This document shows positions 3,326 through 49,818 of a DNA stretch of 64,000 bases, piece by piece. The notes under the pieces are model-generated. The model did no database searches. It worked only from the letters and a program-made list of their open reading frames with translations, and was not told where the DNA came from. Position 1 is the first letter of the stretch; each line of letters starts with the position of its first letter. This DNA is from Candidatus Nitrosopumilus sp. SW. Its GTDB lineage: Archaea; Thermoproteota; Nitrososphaeria; Nitrososphaerales; Nitrosopumilaceae. The stretch spans positions 721,687-785,686 of the forward strand of contig NZ_CP035425.1 of NCBI RefSeq assembly GCF_006740685.1. Direction: 5' to 3'. The translations under genes were made by a program, and so were the position numbers.

Positions 3326-5218
3326 TTAGTTAGTTTTTGTTTCGTCATTTGAAGAGGATTCTGTTGTTTGTCCATCAGCACCTTGTTGTCCATCAGCACC
3401 TTGTTGTCCATCAGCACCTTGTTGTCCATCAGCACCTTGTTGTCCATCAGCACCTGGGGGAGGAGTAGCATTTTTGTAAAGTTCTGTAGTTACTTCATTT
3501 ACAATAGATTGTAATGCATCAAGTTTTGGCTTTAATTCTTCAGGTTCTTTATCTAAAACTTCTTTTACTTCTTTTACAGCATCAGTAATTTTAATTCCTT
3601 GTTCTTGAGAGATTTTATCTTTAAGATCATGATTGACTAATTTCTCAGTAGTGTAGATGTAACTTTCTGCTTCATTTTTAAGATCAATTTTTTCTTTCTT
3701 CTTTTTATCTTCCTCAGAGAATTTTTCTGCATCTTCTTTTAATTTTTCAATCTCTTCTTCAGATAGTTTTGTTTTTGTTTCAATAGTTATTTTTGCTTCT
3801 TTTTGAGTTCCAAGGTCTTTTGCAGTTACATTAATGATTCCATTTGCATCAATATCGAATTTTACTTCAATTTGAGGAACACCTCTTGGAGCAGGAGGTA
3901 AATCAGTAAGATTAAAGCTGCCCAAGGAGACATTATCTGTTGCCATAGGTCTTTCTCCTTGAACAACATGTATTGTTACAGCTGTTTGATTGTCAGCTGC
4001 AGTTGTAAACACCTTACTCTTTGAAGTTGGAATAGTCGTGTTTCTTTCAATAAGAGGTTCACGAACTCCTCCAAGTGTTTCGATACCCAGAGTTAATGGG
4101 GTTACATCAAGTAGAACAATATCACTTGTAACATCACCAGCAATAATTCCTGCTTGGATTGCTGCTCCCATGGCCACTGCTTCCATAGGATCAACTCCGG
4201 ATTCAACCTCTTTTCCTATAACTTCACTAACAAATTTTTTGACTAATGGAATTCTTGTTGGACCACCAATCATTACTATTTTGTTAATATCAGAATTTGA
4301 GAGTTTTGCATCCTCAAGTGCTTTTTGAATAGAAGGTTTACAGCGTTCAACAATAGGTCCAATTAATTCATCAAGTTTAGATCTGGTTAATCTCAATTCA
4401 AGGTTCTTTGCACCTGATGATGGATCATGTGCAATAAAGGGTAGATTAACATCAGTCTCCATTACAGTAGATAATTCAATTTTTGCTTTTTCTGCGGCTT
4501 CTCTTATTCTTGTCATCGCAGTTGTGTCTTGAGAAAGATCAACTCCTTCTTTTTTCTTGAAATCATCAACAATGTAATCAATCAGAACTTTATCCATATC
4601 AGTTCCACCTAGTTGAGTATCACCTGAAGTACTCATTACTTCAAAAACACCACCACCCATTTCCATGATAGTGACATCTAAAGTACCACCACCAAAATCA
4701 AAAACAAGTATCTTCATGTCTTCTTTTGCTTTATCTAATCCAAATGCCAAAGATGCAGCAGTTGGTTCATTAATTATTCTAACAACTTCAAGACCTGCAA
4801 TTGTTCCTGCGTCCTTTGTTGCTTGACGTTGGTTGTCATCAAAATATGCTGGAACTGTAATAACTGCTTTTTCTACAGATTCACCTACAAACGCTTCGGC
4901 ATCTTTTTTTATTTTTTGTAGAATGAATGAGGAAATTTGTTGAGGTTTGTATTCTTTATCCTGAATTTTAAATGTATAGTCAGAACCCATTTTTCGTTTT
5001 GCGGCAATGATTGTGTTATCTGGATTTGTAACTGCTTGTCTTCTAGCAGGCTCACCAACTAGTAATTCTCCTTCTTTAGAGAAAGCGACTACTGATGGAA
5101 ATGCCTTTCCAGCTGCAGTTTGACCTTCAGCTGCAGGAATAATTGTTGGTTTTCCACCCATCATGACTGCTGCTGCAGAGTTACTTGTTCCTAAATCGAT
5201 ACCTATTACTTTAGTCAT
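3326..5218 (-). CDS. dnaK: Chaperone DnaK (Hsp70) with collagen-like C-terminal tail
   Basis: A 630-aa bacterial-type Hsp70. The ATPase domain starts with [10 protein letters not shown] (phosphate loop 1) and contains [13 protein letters not shown] and [10 protein letters not shown]. The interdomain linker [15 protein letters not shown] leads to the beta-sandwich substrate-binding domain and a Lys/Glu-rich helical lid (about 500-595). The last 35 residues are unusual: five GADGQ(Q) units give an uninterrupted Gly-X-Y triplet run of about ten triplets before the [13 protein letters not shown] end. DnaK refolds clients with DnaJ and the exchange factor GrpE, encoded on either side. A partial SD sequence (GGATGAT) precedes the ATG, 9 bp after the grpE stop. 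Confidence 0.97.
3370..3455 (-). repeat. 18-bp tandem repeat encoding GADGQQ in the dnaK tail
   Basis: Nearly five perfect copies of an 18-bp unit (CACCTTGTTGTCCATCAG on the plus strand) encode GADGQQ repeats. The copies look identical at DNA level, which points to recent slippage or recombination. The unit is a multiple of three, so copy-number changes keep frame. Confidence 0.9.
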
Positions 5219-5820: not shown

Positions 5821-6960
5821 TTATTGTATTGTTTCACACAAAGGATTTGCTTTGACAATAATTAAATCAGAATCTTGTTTGGTTTTTTCAATATTTGTGA
5901 AATCAGATTTTGAACAAGTCACAACAATTGTTGTCTTATCACTATGAAATAGATCAAAGTTTGGATCTTCATATGCTTCTACATCACCAATGTAATCACG
6001 TAATCGTGAAGTCAAATTTTGAAGCATTTCAATTTTATCCCCACGCATTGAATGCTGATCAAGCGTCCAAGATAATGCAATTTTAGTTCTGCTAGCTTTA
6101 AGATCGTTTTTCTTTAATGTTGCACGTATTTCATCTATCAATCGTTTTATGTAACCATCAATTCCCTTAACACTTCCATTAATCAGATACATCAGTGTAT
6201 TTGCTCCCTCAAAAGATGATCCTAAAGATTTTAGATCTAACAAACCACCAACCATATCATCAAGGAATATTTCTTGAAAATCATCTGAAGATAAATCATT
6301 CTTAGTAATTTCATCTTGTGCGTACTTACAAACTTCTAACACACTACACAAACTTGAAAATCTTGAGAGAATGTTAATTGCATGAAAATGCTCTGAAGAT
6401 GAAATTGCAACAAAGTTTTTCTCTTTTTTCCCAGTAGTTAATAAATCAGACAATGTTGAATCTTTTTTGCCATTAAAAGAACCAACAATTTTTGGTTGCT
6501 GATCAGTACCCTCTAAAGGATAATAAAAATATGAAATATCTTTTCCAACTTCAAGTCCTGTAACATGTTCAAGTAAAGAAATATTTTCATTATTTCCACC
6601 AAACCCTGTCGGCAGTGTAAAAACAACAGAACTTTTTTTCTTTAAAGATGCCACTGCATCTTTAAATTTTGAATGAATTTCAGTTTTAATATCTTGACCA
6701 GTTTTTCTGATTCTAGGAGTGAAGAATAGGTATTGTGCTTTAGATATTGCCACATCAATTGGTTCCATAGCTAATAATGGTTCATCTTCTTTCAAGGATG
6801 AAACATTAGGATAAGTTTTAGCAATTTCTGCTTTTAGCGAAATTGCAGATGGTGTTGATTCATCAATTATGTAAACATCAGCTCCTTTAATGGCCATTTG
6901 TGATGCAATTGCATACCCCTCTGTACTTAGACCATAAACAACAACTTTTGTTCCCCCCAT
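5821..6960 (-). CDS. Nucleotide-sugar-dehydrogenase-like Rossmann protein
   Basis: A 379-aa protein with an N-terminal Rossmann fold (VVVYGLSTEGYAIASQMAIKG, followed by the acidic VYIIDES end of beta-2). A helical middle region follows (about 190-280). The C-terminal segment SRTKIALSWTLDQHSMRGD and then a YEDP motif resemble the UDP-binding third domain of UDP-glucose/GDP-mannose dehydrogenases. I see no clear catalytic GGxC motif, so it may be a non-catalytic or divergent member. The 245-aa protein at 8246 carries such a motif but lacks the third domain. The next gene (DUF354) is divergent. The fold is fairly sure, the function unknown. Confidence 0.6.
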   Translation of the reverse strand: MGGTKVVVYGLSTEGYAIASQMAIKGADVYIIDESTPSAISLKAEIAKTYPNVSSLKEDEPLLAMEPIDVAISKAQYLFFTPRIRKTGQDIKTEIHSKFKDAVASLKKKSSVVFTLPTGFGGNNENISLLEHVTGLEVGKDISYFYYPLEGTDQQPKIVGSFNGKKDSTLSDLLTTGKKEKNFVAISSSEHFHAINILSRFSSLCSVLEVCKYAQDEITKNDLSSDDFQEIFLDDMVGGLLDLKSLGSSFEGANTLMYLINGSVKGIDGYIKRLIDEIRATLKKNDLKASRTKIALSWTLDQHSMRGDKIEMLQNLTSRLRDYIGDVEAYEDPNFDLFHSDKTTIVVTCSKSDFTNIEKTKQDSDLIIVKANPLCETIQ

Positions 6961-7024
6961 TCCACTAAAGCTTAGGATTAGACTAAGAAAAACTTATTGA
7001 ACTAACTTCAGTTATGGAAATTAC

Positions 7025-39017: not shown

Positions 39018-42000
39018 CTAGTCTGAGTAGATGGTAATCATTTCAGAGAGTATCTTTTGTTTCACTTTAACAGTCAGGTCCTTGATTGCTTGTGCTTCTG
39101 GAATTAGTCCTTGTTCAGTTTCTAAAGTAACTGTCCAATCTCCAACAATTGGATCAATTGAAGTGATAGAGAATCTTTCTAATGCACTATCAGCACCACT
39201 ATACTTTACTCTAAGTATCTGTCCATCATATTCCACACTTTGTAATCCACCTCTATTCTGTCTAGTACTATCTTGAATTGAACATTCATCAGATGCACCG
39301 ATAATACATTGACCATTTGGTGCAATCACATTGAATTTGAATTCATCTTGAGAATCAGATGCATAAATCAATACGGGTTCAGACAATACTTTTCCATCAA
39401 TTTTTATTGGTTGTATGGTCTTCATATCATAGGCAGACATTGAAACTGTCTTTGGATAGTTGTAAAGCACTCCTGAATCAGTAACTTTAGAAATTCCATA
39501 CAAATCTACTTTAGCTTGAATATCATATGATGAGAGACCATCATTAAATGGAGTCTTCCAGTCAAATGATACTTTGGTTTGTCCGTTATCAAAGAACTGA
39601 GCTTGTTTTGATACAACTTCACCATCAACTAACAGAGATACAATACCATATGCTGGTGCTTGTTCATTTTCTATGTAGATATTTGGTCTCACTATTGAGT
39701 TGCTTGCCTGAATAGATGGAACATCTAACTCTAGAGATACATCTGGTTCTGTGATTGGTTTAACGCCCATGGTGTAATGTTTTGATTCAACTTCACTAAG
39801 TTCCTCATCAATTACATGTATCCAATAACTTACTGCTGGATCTTGCAGTAGGAAAGAAGGTATGCTTGCAGATACTTGGTATGCAGAATCAGTATAGATG
39901 AGTGGTTCAACATTCATTTTCATAGCAATGTATTCATCATCAGATTGTCCTAGTGTGATAGTTCTTAGTTCAACTCTCTTGAGTGGCGTCTTGCTATCAA
40001 TAATTGCTGAAATGTTCAAGTCTTGTTCAGATACATAGAAGTATTCTGAATCAACATCGGCAATGTGTTGCGTTCCGTTCTCAATTTGGAATTTGACATC
40101 AAATATTCTAGGCACTCCAAATGAAATTTCACCTGTTTCGCCTTCTGGAATATCAGAAATTACAACAACACCATCACATGAAGGAGTGTTTATTGCAGCA
40201 TTAACGGTATTTTGTACTGTGCCTTTTTCTTCAGTAACAGTAACCATCAAGAATGTTTCATTAGATGTTATTGGAATTTCATACAGATATTTGTCAACTC
40301 TGGTAATCTTGTTTAGTTCTTCATATGGCTGTTCATCAGATAGTACTGCTATGACAGTTCCAGTCTTTGTAGTATGAATTGTAACTACTGGAGGTTTTTC
40401 AGCATCACTAGAGACAAGGATCTTTGCGATATTTTCATCACATTTGTCATATGATACTTCGTTAATTGTGAGTGGAGTGCCTAAAATACCACCAAATCCA
40501 CCTAAGCCTCTACCACTTGGGCCCACACCAACATTACCTCCACCTCCAGATTTACCTTCACTTGGACTAGTAGACGATGAGCTCTTTGATGCACCAAACT
40601 TTGTAAAGTGATTAGTCCACACAACAAGATCACCGCCAACATCGATTTTACATTCATTGTTTGAACCCAAACCTGCAGCAGAATCCGAAGTACATGTTTC
40701 AGTGATAAATGTAAGAGTGCCTGCAGAATTTACAAATACTGGAATAAATCCAGCGTCATTAGTAAATTCAATTCTTGCAGGTTTAGAAAGTGAAATTGAC
40801 TCAGTACTAAGGCCTATCTCAAATGCTGCAATCTCAGAGTAAGAAGTAGTTGTTCTTCCAGATATTTCATCAGGTATTGATATTTCAGTGTCTCCCCAAT
40901 CGAAATTACCTTTGAATACTCCTGCAGATCCAGTAGCAACAGTACCATTAGATAATCGAATATTACCTAAAGATGCTTGGGAATTATTATTTTCTACTTG
41001 ATCATGAGGGACATTGAAGTTTATTATAAGATTTTCAGATCCAGATGTTGTTATTGTAGTTGATGATTTACTTCCAGTAGTAGTTAAACCTGCTGAAAAG
41101 TCAAATGTAATTGATTCTTGGACATCACTTGCTATAGTAATAGATGTAACATTTGTGGTAGATTGCATAATTACTTTTGTATTTTCTTTTGTTACATTAA
41201 CTGTCTCAGTGTCAGTTGTAGTAGTAATGAACGTAGTTCCACTAGAGGAGCTAATTGTAACAGAAGTTGCAGGTGAATTTCCAGAGGTGTTATTAGATGT
41301 GTCTGTTTGTGTAGCAGTAAATGAGTAAGTACCATCAGAAAGTGTAGTTATTGTTACACTCCAATTTCCGCTACTATCAGCAGTTCCTGTTCCAATTGAA
41401 TTAATACCCTCACGAACTGTAATTGATGAGCCTGGTTCAGATGTTCCTGATACGGTATATGGTGCATTATTAGTGGATATGATAAGGACTTTTGGTGGAA
41501 CTACTGTAGTATCAGATGATACTGCAATTCCGGATTGAGTTTCTGCATCAACACCATCAGTACTAGTTACAGTACCAACTAGGTTGAGGGTTGGAGATAT
41601 ACTTGCACCAAGAGCAGGAGATACTGTTAGGGTTACAACATTATCATTTACAGATACTGAAGTGACAGTTATTCCTGATGGGCTAGTTATTGTAAAGTCA
41701 GATGTAGATACTGTTGAAGCACTTAGATCTTGTGAGAATGTTACCTTAATGGTATTTTGTGTGATTACTTCGGCAGATTCTATTGCCATTGTTATTTTAG
41801 CATTAACAGCATCAATTACAGAGATAGAATCAGAAAGCATCAAAGTTTGAGAGAATATCTTAGTAAATGGAGCAGATAGTGTAATGGAGTCAGAGAGTTG
41901 TATGGTTTGAGAGGCGGTGTTGGCAATAGTGTCAGATATTGTGATAGAGTCAGAGAGTGACTGGACAAATGTTGCTGCTGTAACTAAGGTGTCAGTGATT

Positions 42001-45000
42001 GTAATAGAGTCAGAGAGTTGTATGGTTTGAGAGGCGGTGTTGGCAATAGTGTCAGATACTGTGATAGAGTCAGAGAAAGTCTTGGTTATTGATGCTTCAG
42101 TTGCAAAGGTGTCAGTGATTGTAATAGAGTCAGAGAGTTGTATGGTTTGGAATGAGTTGGTTGCGACAGTGTCAGATACTGTGATAGAGTCAGAGAAAGT
42201 CTTGGTTATTGATGCTTCAGTTGCAAAGGTGTCAGTGATTGTAATAGAGTCAGAGAGTTGTATGGTTTGAGAGGCGGTGTTGGCAATAGTGTCAGATACT
42301 GTGATAGAGTCAGAGAGTGACTGGACAAATGTTGCTGCTGTAACTAAGGTGTCAGTAACTCCTACAGAGTCAGAGAGTGGTTGTGTTTGGAATGAGTTGG
42401 TTGCGACAGTGTCAGATACTGTTATTGAATCTGAAAGTGACTGGACAAATGTTGCTGCTGTAACTAAGGTGTCAGTGATTGTAATAGAGTCAGAGAGTTG
42501 TATGGTTTGAGTGGCGGTGTTGGCAATAGTGTCAGATACTGTGATAGAGTCAGAGAAAGTCTTGGTTATTGATGCTTCAGTTGCAAAGGTGTCAGTGATT
42601 GTAATAGAGTCAGAGAGTTGTATGGTTTGGAATGAGTTGGTTGCGACAGTGTCAGATACTGTGATAGAGTCAGAGAAAGTCTTGGTTATTGATGCTTCAG
42701 TTGCAAAGGTGTCAGTGATTGTAATAGAGTCAGAGAGTTGTATGGTTTGAGAGGCGGTGTTGGCAATAGTGTCAGATACTGTGATAGAGTCAGAGAGTGA
42801 CTGGACAAATGTTGCTGCTGTAACTAAGGTGTCAGTAACTCCTACAGAGTCAGAGAGTGGTTGTGTTTGGAATGAGTTGGTTGCGACAGTGTCAGATACT
42901 GTTATTGAATCTGAAAGTGACTGGACAAATGTTGCTGCTGTAACTAAGGTGTCAGTGATTGTAATAGAGTCAGAGAGTTGTATGGTTTGAGAGGCGGTGT
43001 TGGCAATAGTGTCAGATACTGTGATAGAGTCAGAGAAAGTCTTGGTTATTGATGCTTCAGTTGCAAAGGTGTCAGTGATTGTAATAGAGTCAGAGAGTTG
43101 TATGGTTTGGAATGAGTTGGTTGCGACAGTGTCAGATACTGTGATAGAGTCAGAGAAAGTCTTGGTTATTGATGCTTCAGTTGCAAAGGTGTCAGTGATT
43201 GTAATAGAGTCAGAGAGTTGTATGGTTTGAGAGGCGGTGTTGGCAATAGTGTCAGATACTGTGATAGAGTCAGAGAGTGACTGGACAAATGTTGCTGCTG
43301 TAACTAAGGTGTCAGTAACTCCTACAGAGTCAGAGAGTGGTTGTGTTTGGGAAACGGTTTCGGTTACAGTATCAGATACTGTTATTGAATCTGAAAGTGT
43401 CTTGGTTATTGATGCTTCAGTTGCAAAGGTGTCAGTGATTGTAATAGAGTCAGAGAGTTGTATGGTTTGAGAGGCGGTGTTGGCAATAGTGTCAGATACT
43501 GTGATAGAGTCAGAGAGTGACTGGACAAATGTTGCTGCTGTAACTAAGGTGTCAGTAACTCCTACAGAGTCAGAGAGTGGTTGTGTTTGGGAAACGGTTT
43601 CGGTTACAGTATCAGATACTGTTATTGAATCTGAAAGTGACTGGACAAATGTTGCTGCTGTAACTAAGGTGTCAGTAACTCCTACAGAGTCAGAGAGTTG
43701 TATGGTTTGAGAGGCGGTGTTGGCAATAGTGTCAGATACTGTGATAGAGTCAGAGAGTGACTGGACAAATGTTGCTGCTGTAACTAAGGTGTCAGTAACT
43801 CCTACAGAGTCAGAGAGTGGTTGTGTTTGGGAAACGGTTTCGGTTACAGTATCAGATACTGTTATTGAATCTGAAAGTGACTGGACAAATGTTGCTGCTG
43901 TAACTAAGGTGTCAGTAACTCCTACAGAGTCAGAGAGTTGTATGGTTTGAGAGGCGGTGTTGGCAATAGTGTCAGATACTGTGATAGAGTCAGAGAGTGA
44001 CTGGACAAATGTTGCTGCTGTAACTAAGGTGTCAGTAACTCCTACAGAGTCAGAGAGTGGTTGTGTTTGGGAAACGGTTTCGGTTACAGTATCAGATACT
44101 GTTATTGAATCTGAAAGTGTCTTGGTTATTGATGCTTCAGTTGCAAAGGTGTCAGTGATTGTAATAGAGTCAGAGAGTTGTATGGTTTGAGAGGCGGTGT
44201 TGGCAATAGTGTCAGATACTGTGATAGAGTCAGAGAGTGACTGGACAAATGTTGCTGCTGTAACTAAGGTGTCAGTAACTCCTACAGAGTCAGAGAGTGG
44301 TTGTGTTTGGGAAACGGTTTCGGTTACAGTATCAGATACTGTTATTGAATCTGAAAGTGACTGGACAAATGTTGCTGCTGTAACTAAGGTGTCAGTGATT
44401 GTAATAGAGTCAGAGAGTTGTATGGTTTGAGTGGCGGTGTTGGCAATAGTGTCAGATACTGTGATAGAGTCAGAGAGTGACTGGACAAATGTTGCTGCTG
44501 TAACTAAGGTGTCAGTAACTCCTACAGAGTCAGAGAGTGGTTGTGTTTGGGAAACGGTTTCGGTTACAGTATCAGATACTGTTATTGAATCTGAAAGTGT
44601 CTTGGTTATTGATGCTTCAGTTGCAAAGGTGTCAGTGATTGTAATAGAGTCAGAGAGTTGTATGGTTTGAGTGGCGGTGTTGGCAATAGTGTCAGATACT
44701 GTGATAGAGTCAGAGAGTGACTGGACAAATGTTGCTGCTGTAACTAAGGTGTCAGTAACTCCTACAGAGTCAGAGAGTGGTTGTGTTTGGGAAACGGTTT
44801 CGGTTACAGTATCAGATACTGTTATTGAATCTGAAAGTGACTGGACAAATGTTGCTGCTGTAACTAAGGTGTCAGTGATTGTAATAGAGTCAGAGAGTTG
44901 TATGGTTTGAGTGGCGGTGTTGGCAATAGTGTCAGATACTGTGATAGAGTCAGAGAGTTGTATGGTTTGAGTGGCGGTGTTGGTAATAGTGTCAGATACT

Positions 45001-48000
45001 GTGATAGAGTCAGAGAGTTGTATGGTTTGAGTGGCGGTGTTGGTTAGATCATCAGATACTGTGATAGAGTCAGAGAGTTGTATGGTTTGAGAGGCGGTGT
45101 TGGCAATAGTGTCAGATACTGTGATAGAGTCAGAGAGTTGTATGGTTTGAGAGGTGGTGTTGGCAATAGTGTCAGATACTGTGATAGAGTCAGAGAGTTG
45201 TATGGTTTGAGAGGCGGTGTTGGCAATAGTGTCAGATACTGTGATAGAGTCAGAGAGATATTTGAATACTTGTGATGCATAGTTTACTTCAATTGCTTTT
45301 TCAAGTGTTTTTGTACCTCCTGGTAAAGTCCAACTGTGTGTAACAGTAACGTCACCTTGATTAACAGAATATTGAGCATCATAGAAATCAGTACCTACCT
45401 GATCCATCCATGAAGTGCCTCCTAATGGTGTCGTAGGATTTTTGTTTGCAACCATTCCTGAAATCATCGCATCGCCTGCATCTACAAGAATAGCCATACT
45501 TCCATCATCACCAGCATCAGCAACGATGGCACCAACAGTATTTGCAGCATCAGATAATGCTGTGTTATCCTGTTGAACCCCACTCAAAACTATTGCACCT
45601 ACAGAAATATCAGATGCAGCAGTGGTAGTGACTTGAACATCAAAAGCTTGTCCAATAGGGATATTATTTTGTTCTAGTGTGGCAGTGTAAAATCCTGATA
45701 CAGCGTTTGATTGAGAATCTGAAGTAAGTGTACCAGTAACTAGTGTTGGAGTTGCTAAGGAATTGCTTGTTCCATCTGTAACAATATCTACACTAGAGAT
45801 TGTAACAGTGCTTGGATCAGCGGCAACAAAAATTATCACTGCAGGGTTGATGGTATCTGCAGATATTGTAAAAGAATTGGCGGTAGTTGCAGAAGTTACA
45901 GTACCAGTAGCAATACCTACTTGAGATGCAAGAAATCCAGTTACAGGGTCATTTGCAACATACCAGGGTCTTGCTTCAACAAATACAATGTCTCCATCAC
46001 TAATTTCAAGTGGGCCTAATGGGTATAATTGTGGGAATACTAGTGGAACAGAATAGGTATACTCTAGAGTTGTTCTATCATTAATCAAGTCTTTATTCCA
46101 AGTGAGAACTTTTCTATCTCCAACTGTTATGATATTTGCATCAGTATCAGATATTTCAAAGACTGAAGGTACAGTTTCTGTTATTGTGATTGTATCTTTG
46201 TCTGTAAATGACTCTATGTCAATTTTAACATTAAAGGAGTTTGGATCTGTAATTGGATCAATTTTACTTTGAGCAGTTCTGATGATGTCGTACTCTACAA
46301 ATGATGCGACATCAAATGTTGTGTTAAAATTAGTATGAATTTGATATGCTTTTGCGTTTACACTAATTTGATATGTTCCTTCTATTCCTGTTGGATAAGT
46401 TGCCTCATAGAGTCCAATTTCTTTACCACTTGTAATTTCATCACCTGTTTCTAGTTCAGTTATTTCACCATTTGGACTAGTTACAGTCATGAGGATATCA
46501 GCACCGCCAATTGGATGACCTTCTGAATCCAAAACTACAATAGTAAACTCTGCATCATCACCTGGATAGTAAGTGCTCTTTGCAGTGTTAAGTGATACCA
46601 ATCCCCATGCAAATTCTTCTTCAACTGTGTGAGTTTCACCATTTACGGTAAATGTTGTCTTTAGTTTGTAGAGACCAGGTGTGGTAATATCATCAGGAAG
46701 TAATGTTATAGTGAATTTACCATCTCTGTTTTTCTGAATTTCAGATTTAATGTCTACCTTGTTTCCTTTGGAATCAAAAACTTCTGTATTGATTTCGGTT
46801 TCATCATCTTGCCATTTTCCATTTTGTTTCTTGTCAAATGTATCAACATCTACAATTTTTTTTGCATTATGACTTGATTTGTCTAGTTTTACTGCTTGTG
46901 CTTTGTCATTTGCGTTTAGTTTGTTTGCAGTTGACTTGATATCATTTAGTATTGATTTTAGTTGTTTCTTTAGATCTTTGACTGATTCTTCATCGAGATT
47001 ACCTGATTGTTTTAGGGATGCTGTTTGAATCTTTAGAGATTCTAGTTGTTGTTTTAGGGATTCAAGTTCTGTTTTAGTTTGTTCAACATCATTTCCATTT
47101 GCAGCATCAACACTTGGTAAGAATAATTCAATTGAAAAGATCATTCCAAGAACTGCAGCAAATGATTGCGTAGATAGTGCCGGATCATTTAATTCTGTAA
47201 GACTAGATTCTGTTTCAGTTAAGAGTATTTGTGCAGCTGATTCAATCTCTTCAATCTCAGATAGTAATGCATCATATTCATCAAAGAACTCTAACTCAAA
47301 TGTTGCATCCTCAGATAGTTCGAATGTTTGTTCAGTTGAATCAAGAATTGGAGTAGAAATTATTTCTGGTTCTGAGATGGGTGTTGGTTCAGGAATCAAT
47401 TCTCCAGTTGGTTCTGCAGAAATTATTTCAACTGATGTGGAGTTTGATTGTATGGCTGTGGATGTGGAGTTTTCAGAATTTGCTAGTTGTTCTGCTTCAA
47501 TTTGAGCAAGAATCTCTTCTAGGCTGAGCTCAGGCACGATTTTAGCATAAGCAGCCTTTGTTTGCTCATACATTGCCAAAATTTGTTCATCTTCTAGAAC
47601 ATAGTCATACAAGGATACATCATCAATTTCACCTGAGAACTGATTGCTTGCTTTTGATACTTCCTTTTTAACGGTAACAGTTGCACCAATTACAATATCT
47701 TCTTCAGATGTTAGATTTTCAACAGTTGTTGTTTCTAATTTTCCATTTGTGGTAAGTGTTGGCACACCTACAACTTTTTGAGTTGCTTCTCTTGTACCAT
47801 TTACAAAAATTCCTATGTTATCACCATCAAACGTTGATGATAAAAAGTTCCAGTTTTCAGTTATTACACTAGTAGATTCTACAGTAGTCCATTTTATTCC
47901 ATCAAATACAGAGAACTTTGCAGTATTATCAGATAGGAAATTGTTACTAATTGTAAGGGAAAATGATTTGTCCTTGCTTACAACTGTAAATTCTGAAGAA

Positions 48001-48212
48001 CCTGATGAATAATCTGGTTTAACCCATGCAGTTACGGTTAATCCGTCTACATCATCAGTTACAGTAGCATTTTCAATTTGAATAAAATCATCTTGTCCAT
48101 TTAACTCAAGGGATGTAATTTCCGGTTCAATAGAGGTAGCATTGGTGACAATTATTCCTGTGGCTGTGGAGTTACTTTCAGATGTATCTAATTCTTCAAA
48201 TTCAAAAGACAA
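39018..48212 (-). CDS. Giant repetitive surface protein, main (C-terminal) part of a split gene
   Basis: A frame of 3064 codons from a TTG; it is really open further upstream, to about 48447, and lacks its own signal peptide. In order: a LamG/concanavalin-like domain (about 35-215); linkers with NST repeats; a coiled coil (about 380-450); a long beta-rich region typical of thaumarchaeal surface proteins (about 470-980); about 57 tandem 20-residue repeats (SDSITVSDT core, about 985-2115); an SwmB/Big-like Ig pair (SGTSEPGSSITVREG); a Gly-rich hinge (SGGGGNVGVGPSGRG); and a C-terminal beta-rich region with no clear membrane anchor. It is Ser/Thr/Asp rich. Role inferred: adhesin or S-layer-associated. 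The signal peptide is in the 48241-49818 ORF. Confidence 0.85.
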   Translation of the reverse strand: MSFEFEELDTSESNSTATGIIVTNATSIEPEITSLELNGQDDFIQIENATVTDDVDGLTVTAWVKPDYSSGSSEFTVVSKDKSFSLTISNNFLSDNTAKFSVFDGIKWTTVESTSVITENWNFLSSTFDGDNIGIFVNGTREATQKVVGVPTLTTNGKLETTTVENLTSEEDIVIGATVTVKKEVSKASNQFSGEIDDVSLYDYVLEDEQILAMYEQTKAAYAKIVPELSLEEILAQIEAEQLANSENSTSTAIQSNSTSVEIISAEPTGELIPEPTPISEPEIISTPILDSTEQTFELSEDATFELEFFDEYDALLSEIEEIESAAQILLTETESSLTELNDPALSTQSFAAVLGMIFSIELFLPSVDAANGNDVEQTKTELESLKQQLESLKIQTASLKQSGNLDEESVKDLKKQLKSILNDIKSTANKLNANDKAQAVKLDKSSHNAKKIVDVDTFDKKQNGKWQDDETEINTEVFDSKGNKVDIKSEIQKNRDGKFTITLLPDDITTPGLYKLKTTFTVNGETHTVEEEFAWGLVSLNTAKSTYYPGDDAEFTIVVLDSEGHPIGGADILMTVTSPNGEITELETGDEITSGKEIGLYEATYPTGIEGTYQISVNAKAYQIHTNFNTTFDVASFVEYDIIRTAQSKIDPITDPNSFNVKIDIESFTDKDTITITETVPSVFEISDTDANIITVGDRKVLTWNKDLINDRTTLEYTYSVPLVFPQLYPLGPLEISDGDIVFVEARPWYVANDPVTGFLASQVGIATGTVTSATTANSFTISADTINPAVIIFVAADPSTVTISSVDIVTDGTSNSLATPTLVTGTLTSDSQSNAVSGFYTATLEQNNIPIGQAFDVQVTTTAASDISVGAIVLSGVQQDNTALSDAANTVGAIVADAGDDGSMAILVDAGDAMISGMVANKNPTTPLGGTSWMDQVGTDFYDAQYSVNQGDVTVTHSWTLPGGTKTLEKAIEVNYASQVFKYLSDSITVSDTIANTASQTIQLSDSITVSDTIANTTSQTIQLSDSITVSDTIANTASQTIQLSDSITVSDDLTNTATQTIQLSDSITVSDTITNTATQTIQLSDSITVSDTIANTATQTIQLSDSITITDTLVTAATFVQSLSDSITVSDTVTETVSQTQPLSDSVGVTDTLVTAATFVQSLSDSITVSDTIANTATQTIQLSDSITITDTFATEASITKTLSDSITVSDTVTETVSQTQPLSDSVGVTDTLVTAATFVQSLSDSITVSDTIANTATQTIQLSDSITITDTLVTAATFVQSLSDSITVSDTVTETVSQTQPLSDSVGVTDTLVTAATFVQSLSDSITVSDTIANTASQTIQLSDSITITDTFATEASITKTLSDSITVSDTVTETVSQTQPLSDSVGVTDTLVTAATFVQSLSDSITVSDTIANTASQTIQLSDSVGVTDTLVTAATFVQSLSDSITVSDTVTETVSQTQPLSDSVGVTDTLVTAATFVQSLSDSITVSDTIANTASQTIQLSDSVGVTDTLVTAATFVQSLSDSITVSDTVTETVSQTQPLSDSVGVTDTLVTAATFVQSLSDSITVSDTIANTASQTIQLSDSITITDTFATEASITKTLSDSITVSDTVTETVSQTQPLSDSVGVTDTLVTAATFVQSLSDSITVSDTIANTASQTIQLSDSITITDTFATEASITKTFSDSITVSDTVATNSFQTIQLSDSITITDTFATEASITKTFSDSITVSDTIANTASQTIQLSDSITITDTLVTAATFVQSLSDSITVSDTVATNSFQTQPLSDSVGVTDTLVTAATFVQSLSDSITVSDTIANTASQTIQLSDSITITDTFATEASITKTFSDSITVSDTVATNSFQTIQLSDSITITDTFATEASITKTFSDSITVSDTIANTATQTIQLSDSITITDTLVTAATFVQSLSDSITVSDTVATNSFQTQPLSDSVGVTDTLVTAATFVQSLSDSITVSDTIANTASQTIQLSDSITITDTFATEASITKTFSDSITVSDTVATNSFQTIQLSDSITITDTFATEASITKTFSDSITVSDTIANTASQTIQLSDSITITDTLVTAATFVQSLSDSITISDTIANTASQTIQLSDSITLSAPFTKIFSQTLMLSDSISVIDAVNAKITMAIESAEVITQNTIKVTFSQDLSASTVSTSDFTITSPSGITVTSVSVNDNVVTLTVSPALGASISPTLNLVGTVTSTDGVDAETQSGIAVSSDTTVVPPKVLIISTNNAPYTVSGTSEPGSSITVREGINSIGTGTADSSGNWSVTITTLSDGTYSFTATQTDTSNNTSGNSPATSVTISSSSGTTFITTTTDTETVNVTKENTKVIMQSTTNVTSITIASDVQESITFDFSAGLTTTGSKSSTTITTSGSENLIINFNVPHDQVENNNSQASLGNIRLSNGTVATGSAGVFKGNFDWGDTEISIPDEISGRTTTSYSEIAAFEIGLSTESISLSKPARIEFTNDAGFIPVFVNSAGTLTFITETCTSDSAAGLGSNNECKIDVGGDLVVWTNHFTKFGASKSSSSTSPSEGKSGGGGNVGVGPSGRGLGGFGGILGTPLTINEVSYDKCDENIAKILVSSDAEKPPVVTIHTTKTGTVIAVLSDEQPYEELNKITRVDKYLYEIPITSNETFLMVTVTEEKGTVQNTVNAAINTPSCDGVVVISDIPEGETGEISFGVPRIFDVKFQIENGTQHIADVDSEYFYVSEQDLNISAIIDSKTPLKRVELRTITLGQSDDEYIAMKMNVEPLIYTDSAYQVSASIPSFLLQDPAVSYWIHVIDEELSEVESKHYTMGVKPITEPDVSLELDVPSIQASNSIVRPNIYIENEQAPAYGIVSLLVDGEVVSKQAQFFDNGQTKVSFDWKTPFNDGLSSYDIQAKVDLYGISKVTDSGVLYNYPKTVSMSAYDMKTIQPIKIDGKVLSEPVLIYASDSQDEFKFNVIAPNGQCIIGASDECSIQDSTRQNRGGLQSVEYDGQILRVKYSGADSALERFSITSIDPIVGDWTVTLETEQGLIPEAQAIKDLTVKVKQKILSEMITIYSD
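41871..45260 (-). repeat. 60-bp tandem array (about 57 copies) in the giant surface gene
   Basis: Each 60-bp unit encodes a SDSITVSDT-like core plus a ten-residue spacer. Five spacer types recur: IANTASQTIQ, LVTAATFVQS, FATEASITKT, VATNSFQTIQ and VTETVSQTQP, with small variants. Cores alternate between SDSITVSDT and SDSITITDT/SDSVGVTDT, giving a 120-bp dimer nested in a 240-bp higher-order period. The register is exact at 60 bp across almost the whole array, and many units are identical at DNA level. No spacer-like unique sequence exists, so it is not CRISPR. Confidence 0.95.
47435..47471 (-). repeat. Isolated remnant of the 21-bp NSTAIQS repeat
   Basis: The sequence matching the 21-bp unit (GTGGAGTTTGATTGTATGGC on the plus strand) recurs here about 800 bp from the main array, inside the giant ORF. 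Sharing this unit ties the two split ORFs together as one ancestral gene. Confidence 0.75.
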
Positions 48213-48287
48213 AGATGCTTTTGGAACAACAATTTCCGGTTCAATAGAGGTAGCATTGGTGACAATTATTCCTGTGGCTGTGGAGTT
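48117..48287 (-). repeat. Direct duplication, two 57-bp copies 114 bp apart
   Basis: Copies at 48117-48173 and 48231-48287 appear identical and encode NSTATGIIVTNATSIEPEI twice. The 114-bp offset (38 codons) keeps frame. It lies at the edge of the 21-bp array, as if a larger block had been duplicated there. Confidence 0.85.
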
Positions 48288-49818
48288 TGATTGTATGGCT
48301 GTGGAGTTTGATTGTATGGCTGTGGAGTTTGATTGTATGGCTGTGGAGTTTGATTGTATGGCTGTGGAGTTTGATTGTATGGCTGTGGAGTTTGATTGTA
48401 TGGCTGTGGAGTTTGATTGTATGGCTGTGGAGTTTGATTGTATGGCTTGATTGTATGGCTGTGGAGTTTGATTGTATGGCTGTGGAGTTTGATTGTATGG
48501 CTGTGGAGTTTGATTGTATGGCTGTGGAGTTTGATTGTATGGCTGTGGAGTTTGATTGTATGGCTGTGGAGTTTGATTGTATGGCTGTGGAGTTTGATTG
48601 TATGGCTGTGGAGTTTGATTGTATGGCTGTGGAGTTTGATTGTATGGCTGTGGAGTTTGATTGTATGGCTGTGGAGTTTGATTGTATGGCTGTGGAGTTT
48701 GATTGTATGGCTGTGGAGTTTGATTGTATGGCTGTGGAGTTTGATTGTATGGCTGTGGAGTTTGATTGTATGGCTGTGGAGTTTGATTGTATGGCTGTGG
48801 AGTTTGATTGTATGGCTGTGGAGTTTGATTGTATGGCTGTGGAGTTTGATTGTATGGCTGTGGAGTTTGATTGTATGGCTGTGGAGTTTGATTGTATGGC
48901 TGTGGAGTTTGATTGTATGGCTGTGGAGTTTGATTTTGTTGTTGTAGAATTTTCTAAATTAAAATTATTTTGAGAATCCTGAATTATACCATCAAAAGAA
49001 AATTCCTCACCAAAAGCAACAGGCAGTTCCCAATAATTTGTTGAAATTAAGAATGGTGTGCTTATAGTAGATAATAATATTAAAACGAATAAACTTGAAC
49101 ACTGAATTTGTTTAGGAAATTTAGGATTAATTTTAATTTGTTCTGATTTAATTAAGACAATTCCTGCAAGAGGAACCAACAACAATGAGATGGTAGGATT
49201 AGAGAGAATAGAAATCTCTTTTTCAAAAGATGGTGGAATGAATTGGTAGGTTTCTTCATTTAATTCAAGGGATATTATGTTATTTGGTTTGTCTTGAAAA
49301 TAATTTGAAAGAACTTGTTGGATTTCTTCGTTGTGAATGTTTTCATTAAAAATCACTTTAGATGAATCTGACAAGAAGTTTTCTATAGAATTGTATGAAT
49401 CAATATCATTTTCAGATAACTGAAGATTTTTTCCATCAAATTTCATTTTTTCAGAATTTGTTATTCTTGTTAATGATGCATACTTGTCAGTTTCATAATT
49501 GACATAAACCTCTGGTGGAATTTCATAAGGTTGTGTTAAAACACTAATTTTTTCATTGAAATGTATTACATTAAGTACTTTGGGGGCAACAGAATTTTTT
49601 GATGTTGGTGAATCATCTAATGCTACATTGATGTTTTCATTTAATTTTAGAATATATGCTTTCTCTGCATTTTCAAGAAATTGTTCAGAGCTCATAGAAT
49701 TTTGAAATTCAAGAGAAATTTCTTTTTCACTGGTTCCATTTGCAGACGGAATTGAAAATGTAATACCGATGACAAAAAATAACATCAGTATTTTAGTAAT
49801 TCCTACTTTCTCTTTCAT
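48241..49818 (-). CDS. Giant surface protein, N-terminal part of the split gene
   Basis: A 525-codon frame starting ATG. A signal peptide (residues 1-28, MLFFVIGITFSIPSANG) precedes an alpha/beta region (30-200). A hydrophobic helix (about 206-224) and a second signal-like hydrophobic stretch (CSSLFVLILLSTISTPFLIST, about 242-262) lead to LPVAFGEE, and then 23 NSTAIQS repeats. After the 8-bp deletion at 48447/48448 the frame turns into LHSHTIK nonsense and stops. Restoring 8 bp joins it to the 3064-codon ORF: 10801 + 8 = 10809 bp, a 3602-aa protein. The secretion signal therefore belongs to the giant protein. Confidence 0.8.
   Translation of the reverse strand: MKEKVGITKILMLFFVIGITFSIPSANGTSEKEISLEFQNSMSSEQFLENAEKAYILKLNENINVALDDSPTSKNSVAPKVLNVIHFNEKISVLTQPYEIPPEVYVNYETDKYASLTRITNSEKMKFDGKNLQLSENDIDSYNSIENFLSDSSKVIFNENIHNEEIQQVLSNYFQDKPNNIISLELNEETYQFIPPSFEKEISILSNPTISLLLVPLAGIVLIKSEQIKINPKFPKQIQCSSLFVLILLSTISTPFLISTNYWELPVAFGEEFSFDGIIQDSQNNFNLENSTTTKSNSTAIQSNSTAIQSNSTAIQSNSTAIQSNSTAIQSNSTAIQSNSTAIQSNSTAIQSNSTAIQSNSTAIQSNSTAIQSNSTAIQSNSTAIQSNSTAIQSNSTAIQSNSTAIQSNSTAIQSNSTAIQSNSTAIQSNSTAIQSNSTAIQSNSTAIQSNSTAIQSSHTIKLHSHTIKLHSHTIKLHSHTIKLHSHTIKLHSHTIKLHSHTIKLHSHTIKLHSHRNNCHQCYLY
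48276..48934 (-). repeat. 21-bp tandem array (about 31 copies) encoding NSTAIQS
   Basis: About 8 units precede and 23 units follow one defective 13-bp unit (plus-strand order). Every normal unit is AACTCCACAGCCATACAATCA on the coding strand, encoding NSTAIQS, so each copy adds an N-glycosylation sequon. At 48447/48448 one unit lacks the 8 bp GTGGAGTT, shifting the frame. Units look identical, implying recent expansion. Confidence 0.95.
48447..48448 (-). other. 8-bp deletion junction splitting the giant surface gene
   Basis: The plus strand reads TATGGCT|TGATTGTATGGC where every other unit reads TATGGCT-GTGGAGTT-TGATTG. Losing 8 bp puts upstream NSTAIQS and downstream NSTAIQS in different frames. 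Confidence 0.9.

Follow-up and report, generated by a model that had tools for sequence, protein, structure and literature searches.

A 64,000-nucleotide stretch of the genome of Candidatus Nitrosopumilus sp. SW (contig NZ_CP035425.1, positions 721,687 to 785,686; hereafter the window, in whose coordinates positions are given) carries a gene for a giant putative surface protein, the central part of which is an array of 60-bp units. Our analysis supports an expansion of this array via multi-unit blocks of four or eight units, and not via single units. Taking the evidence together, we consider it probable that a surface stalk was recently enlarged by duplication of four-unit and then of eight-unit blocks via homologous recombination. 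The gene and the parts of the array are as follows.

39018-48212, minus strand: body open reading frame (ORF) of the giant surface protein, 3064 amino acids; the frame is open up to 48953
41835-45254, minus strand: 60-bp unit array, 57 units of 20 amino acids each, SDS core plus spacer
44895-45254, minus strand: units 1-6, monomeric, all of the IANT type, with private point variants
43215-44894, minus strand: units 7-34, 240-bp domain made of seven tetramers in the class order a b a b c c b
42015-43214, minus strand: units 35-54, octamer domain with a 480-bp period, class order d e d e d
41775-41894, minus strand: units 57 and 58, degenerate edge

The array is read on the minus strand from 45254 to 41835. 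Within the body ORF, the SDS cores are exactly 20 residues apart in 57 of 57 spacings, which confirms the exact 60-bp register over about 57 units described in the original prediction, an earlier note made from the sequence of the window. The 58th core, beyond the array, is decayed. Unit 57 matches its best counterpart among the other units at 38 of 60 positions and the 58th core at 32 of 60, and the two slots directly upstream of unit 1 match at only 24-25 of 60. All 56 regular units are accounted for by 15 distinct 60-mers. Numbered from 0 and taken in reading order, these types run 0,1,0,2,3,4 in units 1-6; 5674 / 8674 / 5670 / 8670 / 9670 / 9670 / 8670 in units 7-34 (one digit per unit); 10,11,10,0 / 5,12,7,0 / 10,11,10,4 / 5,12,7,0 / 10,11,10,0 in units 35-54; and 13,14 in units 55-56. 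The original prediction had further named five spacer types and a pair of alternating core classes. Both were recovered, and the alternation is exact across units 7-56, but it does not extend to units 1-6, which are of one type.

Base identity among the 56 regular units was 0.595 at a lag of 60 bp, 0.794 at 120 bp, 0.875 at 240 bp, 0.915 at 480 bp and 0.875 at 960 bp, and the top score of Tandem Repeats Finder was likewise at 480 bp. Units 7-56 were then shuffled 20000 times freely and 20000 times with the two-class alternation kept. Free shuffles reached the observed identity in 0/20000 cases at a lag of four units, 0/20000 at eight units and 3/20000 at two units. With the alternation kept, the corresponding counts were 26/20000 at lag 4 and 0/20000 at lag 8. 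At lag 2, however, 19857/20000 of these shuffles reached the observed identity, meaning that it is low and not high. The 120-bp dimer of the original prediction was therefore rejected as an amplified block, the identity at lag 2 lying below what alternation alone leads one to expect. The 120-bp level is alternation only, and the amplified blocks are those of 240 and 480 bp. Of the predicted 60/120/240-bp nesting, the 240-bp level is upheld by the shuffles at lag 4 and the amplified 120-bp level is not, while the strongest period, 480 bp, had been missed. Word counts point the same way: the array contains 32 distinct four-unit words out of 47, compared with a minimum of 39 among 5000 alternation-kept shuffles, and its counts of distinct 2-, 3-, 4- and 6-unit words are each below every one of these shuffles. 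Eight-unit words (43 distinct of 43) did not differ from the alternation-kept shuffles, so that every exact octamer is rendered unique by single-base variants. With the low identity at 60 bp set against that at 480 bp, tetramer classes that are near-identical, and an order at lags 4 and 8 that is explained neither by chance nor by alternation, the array has the organisation of a higher-order repeat.

The copying of multi-unit DNA blocks can be followed directly. Cut from unit 7 onwards, the array yields 12 consecutive 240-bp tetramers of five classes, arranged a b a b c c b d e d e d; members of one class differ by 0-1 bp in 240 and members of different classes by 6-62 bp. Exact repeats of 479, 471, 435 and 434 bp were found at lags of 480, 720, 960 and 240 bp, respectively, along with a further exact repeat of 358 bp inside the array. 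In addition, SDS is encoded as TCAGATTCA in place of TCTGACTCT in units 8, 12, 16, 20, 24, 28, 32, 40 and 48, at spacings of 4, 4, 4, 4, 4, 4, 8 and 8 units. As this codon marker is purely synonymous and follows the blocks, DNA must have been copied, and selection on an alternation in the protein is not sufficient. We considered whether single units had multiplied and the alternation had been imposed by selection on protein structure, a view with which the conserved core residues and the exact alternation over units 7-56 agree. The block-following synonymous variant and the near-identity of the 240-bp blocks contradict it, and we find it scarcely credible. Selection is nevertheless visible in the ratio of non-synonymous to synonymous differences (pN/pS), which was 0.24 in core codons and 0.76 in spacers over 45 pairs of recurrent unit types. 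Core codons are thus constrained and spacers freer, and what is being copied is therefore a coding stalk with a conserved core. Expansion by multi-unit blocks, the central claim of the original prediction, is borne out by the tetramer classes, the exact 434-479-bp repeats and the synonymous marker; a check for a random unit order lacking sharing at multiples of 240 bp found sharing by blocks.

In terms of the agent, unequal recombination is likely to have acted, in preference to multi-unit replication slippage. In the mechanism that we propose, misaligned copies would recombine so that four-unit blocks, and later eight-unit blocks, are duplicated, and short gene-conversion patches would mix unit types. 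The alternating cores would be a by-product of a four-unit block of the form A-B-A'-B', making a separate dimer amplification unnecessary. Exchange would be of the unequal, RecA-family kind rather than slippage, and its biological result would be a stalk of adjustable length. Block sharing, the moving synonymous marker, mosaic units, decayed edges, the private nature of the array and a 771-bp tract elsewhere in the gene all support block recombination. As for the mosaic units, part of the interior of type 12 is type 11 sequence and the rest is type 6, a structure suggestive of gene conversion or of a double exchange inside one unit. The tract is the following.

46603-47373, minus strand: 771-bp tract identical to positions 7409-8179 of contig G000:C1 (locus L034), in a paralogue

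The paralogue is another giant member of this gene family (G000:C1 5673-13136), about 0.76 Mb off on the numbered contig of the same genome, and is a full-length in-frame ORF of 2488 amino acids. Left of the tract, identity drops immediately to 24-38%; on the right side it stays at 66-80% over 200 bp before being lost. Outside the tract the two giant paralogues are diverged. The 771-bp identity is best read as the trace of a recent ectopic gene conversion or segmental exchange. The paralogue (L034 5673-13136) has an array of its own, a 171-bp trimer array of 18-, 19- and 20-residue units, as well as an N-terminal region of SVNATSVG repeats.

Slippage of several units at a time during replication would give the same pattern, and the copies do lie head to tail and adjacent, with the 60-bp register always kept. 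On the other hand, exact sharing also links non-adjacent blocks, at lags of 720 and 960, and both the unit with an internal patch and the apparent ectopic exchange in the same gene fit recombination more easily. We give slippage a modest chance. Other points also weigh against a stalk enlarged by block recombination. The genome collections used contain one genome per species, so that no change of size between strains has been seen. Simulations with free block sizes, described below, scatter the periods and leave the dominance of four and eight units unexplained. The closest relative found, Marine Group I thaumarchaeote SCGC AAA799-D11, is a single-cell genome by name, and its short array may have collapsed if the assembly was made from short reads. 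An assembly artefact in the window itself might also be suspected, as 480-bp repeats are hard to assemble and contigs of relatives often end inside such arrays. However, the genome is a single contig, the frame is intact through all 57 units, the blocks have private variants of their own, and a pattern of this kind recurs in independent genomes. We regard an artefact as very improbable.

AAA799-D11 is the nearest named record, followed by Nitrosarchaeum metagenome-assembled genomes. It is 90-92% identical in the C-terminal region, but its array contains only about six or seven different units, mostly of 18 residues, compared with 57 units here. Searching 250 family genomes with the C-terminal part, we obtained matches at E 0.001 or better in 201 of them, many being short, weak and to another protein of about 1100 residues. 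The latter, present in most genomes, has about 90 residues in common with the giant C-terminus (for example at G000:C1 291524-291808). An alignment of 14 segments indicated that the units of relatives are built like [ST][DE]xx..xD and that their sequences are private. In ten arrays, a set that left out two higher-order arrays (those of genomes G201 and G259), the nearest relative of a unit type lay within its own array for 76 of 79 types, and amplification has therefore been concerted and private to each lineage. The family as a whole does not adhere to an exact 60-bp register, with units of 18/19/20 residues in the paralogue, 20/22 in G130 and 18/21 in G036. In the G036 array (L036, near 6940-6980), stops separate two parts whose frame number is the same. 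Related contigs (G066, G141 and others), even of near-complete genomes, often start or end within the array. Where assemblies of these archaea break at the giant gene, the organisation of the array tells assemblers and annotators why.

A survey of both strands at all loci gave 66 arrays, with 24 rows of at least 15 units. An antisense row (L083, plus strand) and a second row of the same gene at L120 were dropped, and G012 was added from a separate analysis because the duplicate filter had left just a short piece of it, making 23 arrays. G118 was not counted, having a period of four units (z 4.5) with most other lags raised in one analysis and being monomeric in another. An array was scored as significant if its best period was at least 2 with z above 3. 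As a result, 12 of the 23 arrays showed a significant higher-order period, and every one of these was of 3, 4 or 8 units: 8 in the window and G036; 4 in G007, G130, G204, G211, G259 and G012; and 3 in the paralogue, G201, G144 and G238. The 12 arrays come from 11 genomes and six genera, five of them from one genus and two of these from one genome, and have unit lengths of 17-23 residues. The remaining 11 had a period of 1 or z below 3 (including periods 3, 4, 4, 5 and 5 at z 2.2-2.9). Higher-order lags included 162 bp in G238, 171 bp in the paralogue, 174 bp in G144, 216 bp in G036 and G211, 240 bp in the window, G007 and G012, 243 bp in G204, 246 bp in G130, 267 bp in G259, and 480 bp in the window.

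We tentatively raise the possibility that stalk arrays of the Nitrosopumilaceae repeatedly and independently form higher-order repeats of three to four units, whatever the length or sequence of the unit. Such blocks would measure 162-267 bp, doubled to eight units in the window and G036. This recurrence across the family is the new part of our results. In neutral simulations, six free distributions of block size placed 0.22-0.44 of significant periods in the set {3,4,8}, while simulations that allowed only blocks of 3-4 units, or of 1, 3 and 4 units, placed 0.91-0.93 there. Several facts speak against such a recurrence. Three shorter family arrays have other significant periods, namely 2 in G229 (12 units), 2 in G203 (10 units) and 5 in G121 (13 units, with masked letters), giving 12/15 over all sizes; this count excludes L049 (plus strand) and L098 (minus strand), which are not family sense arrays. 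The set {3,4,8} was picked after the data had been seen and the genes are related, so that the formal odds, 1e-8 to 6e-5, should not be read literally. Unit lengths are too uniform to decide whether the blocks are fixed in base pairs or in unit number.

The same recurrence would be expected if three or four units made up one folded stalk module, with recombination supplying the variation and selection keeping duplications of whole modules. The periods of 3, 4 or 8 in 12/12 significant arrays of at least 15 units, over unit lengths of 17-23 residues, agree with this. Yet G118, G246, G061 and G220 have no higher-order period (k = 1), G240 has a long, near-uniform 54-bp array, and the structure model of our array is of low confidence and without a PDB match at E 0.001 or better. 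We accord the folded module a small chance. If the recurrence is real, there is either a preferred block length of recombination or replication in these archaea or a hidden protein module of three to four units, and the genes would be a natural test bed for the origin of higher-order repeats in which the control of block size is directly testable.

The other parts of the giant gene are listed below.

48241-49818, minus strand: upstream ORF with a hydrophobic N-terminus and NSTAIQS repeats, in a frame different from that of the body ORF
48275-48935, minus strand: 21-bp array with one 13-bp unit near 48447 (48434-48460), which changes the frame
47580-48101, minus strand: LamG-like domain (Laminin_G_3; Pfam, E 2e-15)
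46335-46586, minus strand: MG2-like domain (29.2 bits, under the Pfam curated cut-off of 32.8)
41268-41471, minus strand: Big_6 Ig-like domain, directly past the array (Pfam, E 2.5e-10)
39018-40400, minus strand: conserved C-terminal 460 residues, predicted tandem beta-sandwich domains

The hydrophobic N-terminus and the LamG and Ig-like domains, recognised by sequence alone, may point to the cell surface, and the array is probably the stalk of a giant membrane-anchored surface protein. Its order would be N-terminal hydrophobic segments, LamG, the MG2-like domain, the 20-residue repeat stalk and Ig-like C-terminal domains. A structure model of the C-terminal 460 residues had a mean pLDDT of 80.9, and Foldseek matched it to the C-terminus of antigen I/II at E 6.2e-8, but with a TM-score of only 0.23, and to other Ig-like chains with low TM-scores. 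The array was modelled weakly (mean pLDDT 58.7); Foldseek found nothing for it at E 0.001 or better, and every listed TM-score was low. Profile searches of the PDB gave best E values of only 0.08 for the C-terminal part and 0.066 for the array, the latter to a designed helical repeat. A Pfam search of the giant protein revealed no adhesin family, and by sequence the stalk unit does not qualify as an Ig domain. A TFIIB label (Pfam) was rejected as a match to repeat composition, since the whole-protein score exceeds the cut-off but no single stretch passes. 'Serine-rich protein', SMC and autotransporter labels (NCBIfam) on two ORFs, with scores far under the cut-offs, were discarded on the same grounds. 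The upstream neighbour is a GT2/GtrA glycosyltransferase gene, and the downstream, convergent neighbour encodes a class II aminoacyl-tRNA synthetase, which we presume to resemble glycyl-tRNA synthetase. Elsewhere in the window, an ORF at 3326-5218 contains a perfect 18-bp repeat of 4.9 copies (3368-3455).

Among the 30 spacings of the 21-bp array, 29 are of 21 bp and one is of 13 bp. Because of the 13-bp unit, the N-terminal ORF (48241-49818) is out of frame with the body ORF, and each of the two frames reads NSTAIQS on its own side of this unit. AAA799-D11 (L045) also changes frame, at a 24-bp array of its own at the equivalent point of the gene, and in G007 the N-terminal part is broken three times. 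The paralogue and eleven other relatives, on the other hand, run uninterrupted from the N-terminal start to the C-terminal part; five further relatives examined for read-through gave no such ORF, and one starts inside the array. The break could mean that a switch is in its off state, that the gene has decayed or that the sequence contains an error. A frame break at a tandem repeat is a mark of contingency genes, and it is seen here, in one genome, where a 13-bp unit interrupts the 21-bp series. Bacterial surface genes have been described as phase-variable at tandem repeats (PMC3711429).

Higher-order repeats have mostly been studied in eukaryotic centromeres, which lack a coding constraint and in which rates are difficult to determine. 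Here a small archaeal genome has the same organisation in 3.4 kb of coding sequence, its relatives have many independent arrays, and the synonymous sites of a coding array separate the copying of DNA from selection on the protein. In alpha satellite, which is non-coding and centromeric, diverged monomers are grouped in near-identical blocks. The predicted resemblance to higher-order satellites holds for this organisation, in that diverged monomers form blocks whose copies differ by 0-1 bp in 240, but not for the non-coding, centromeric nature, as the array is coding, in frame, short and intragenic, within a 3064-residue archaeal ORF. Giant bacterial fibrillar adhesins of the RTX type and antigen I/II share the very long repetitive stalk and, for antigen I/II, the Foldseek matches of the predicted C-terminal domains noted above; they differ in that no Pfam adhesin family is found here and the stalk unit is not Ig by sequence. 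A literature search, made on listings apart from the papers cited here, for giant repeat surface proteins of ammonia-oxidising archaea and for higher-order repeats of bacterial proteins gave nothing on this array. Coding satellites of Methanosarcina surface-layer genes are alike in having a repeat length that is a multiple of three and in lying in surface-protein genes, and the main text of that report, as far as covered here, contains neither the term 'higher order' nor any name beginning with 'Nitroso' (PMC6749651). Periscope Proteins, according to the sections of PMC9704523 drawn on here, are surface stalks with repeats near-identical at the DNA level, and their length is thought to change through homologous recombination. 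They are bacterial and defined by tandem repeats of more than 50 residues, whereas ours is an archaeal array with a 20-residue unit; the monomer falls below this size, but the 80- and 160-residue higher-order units, in this one genome, exceed it. In kind, the array is a higher-order repeat that codes for a putative surface stalk and bears comparison with periscope-type proteins.

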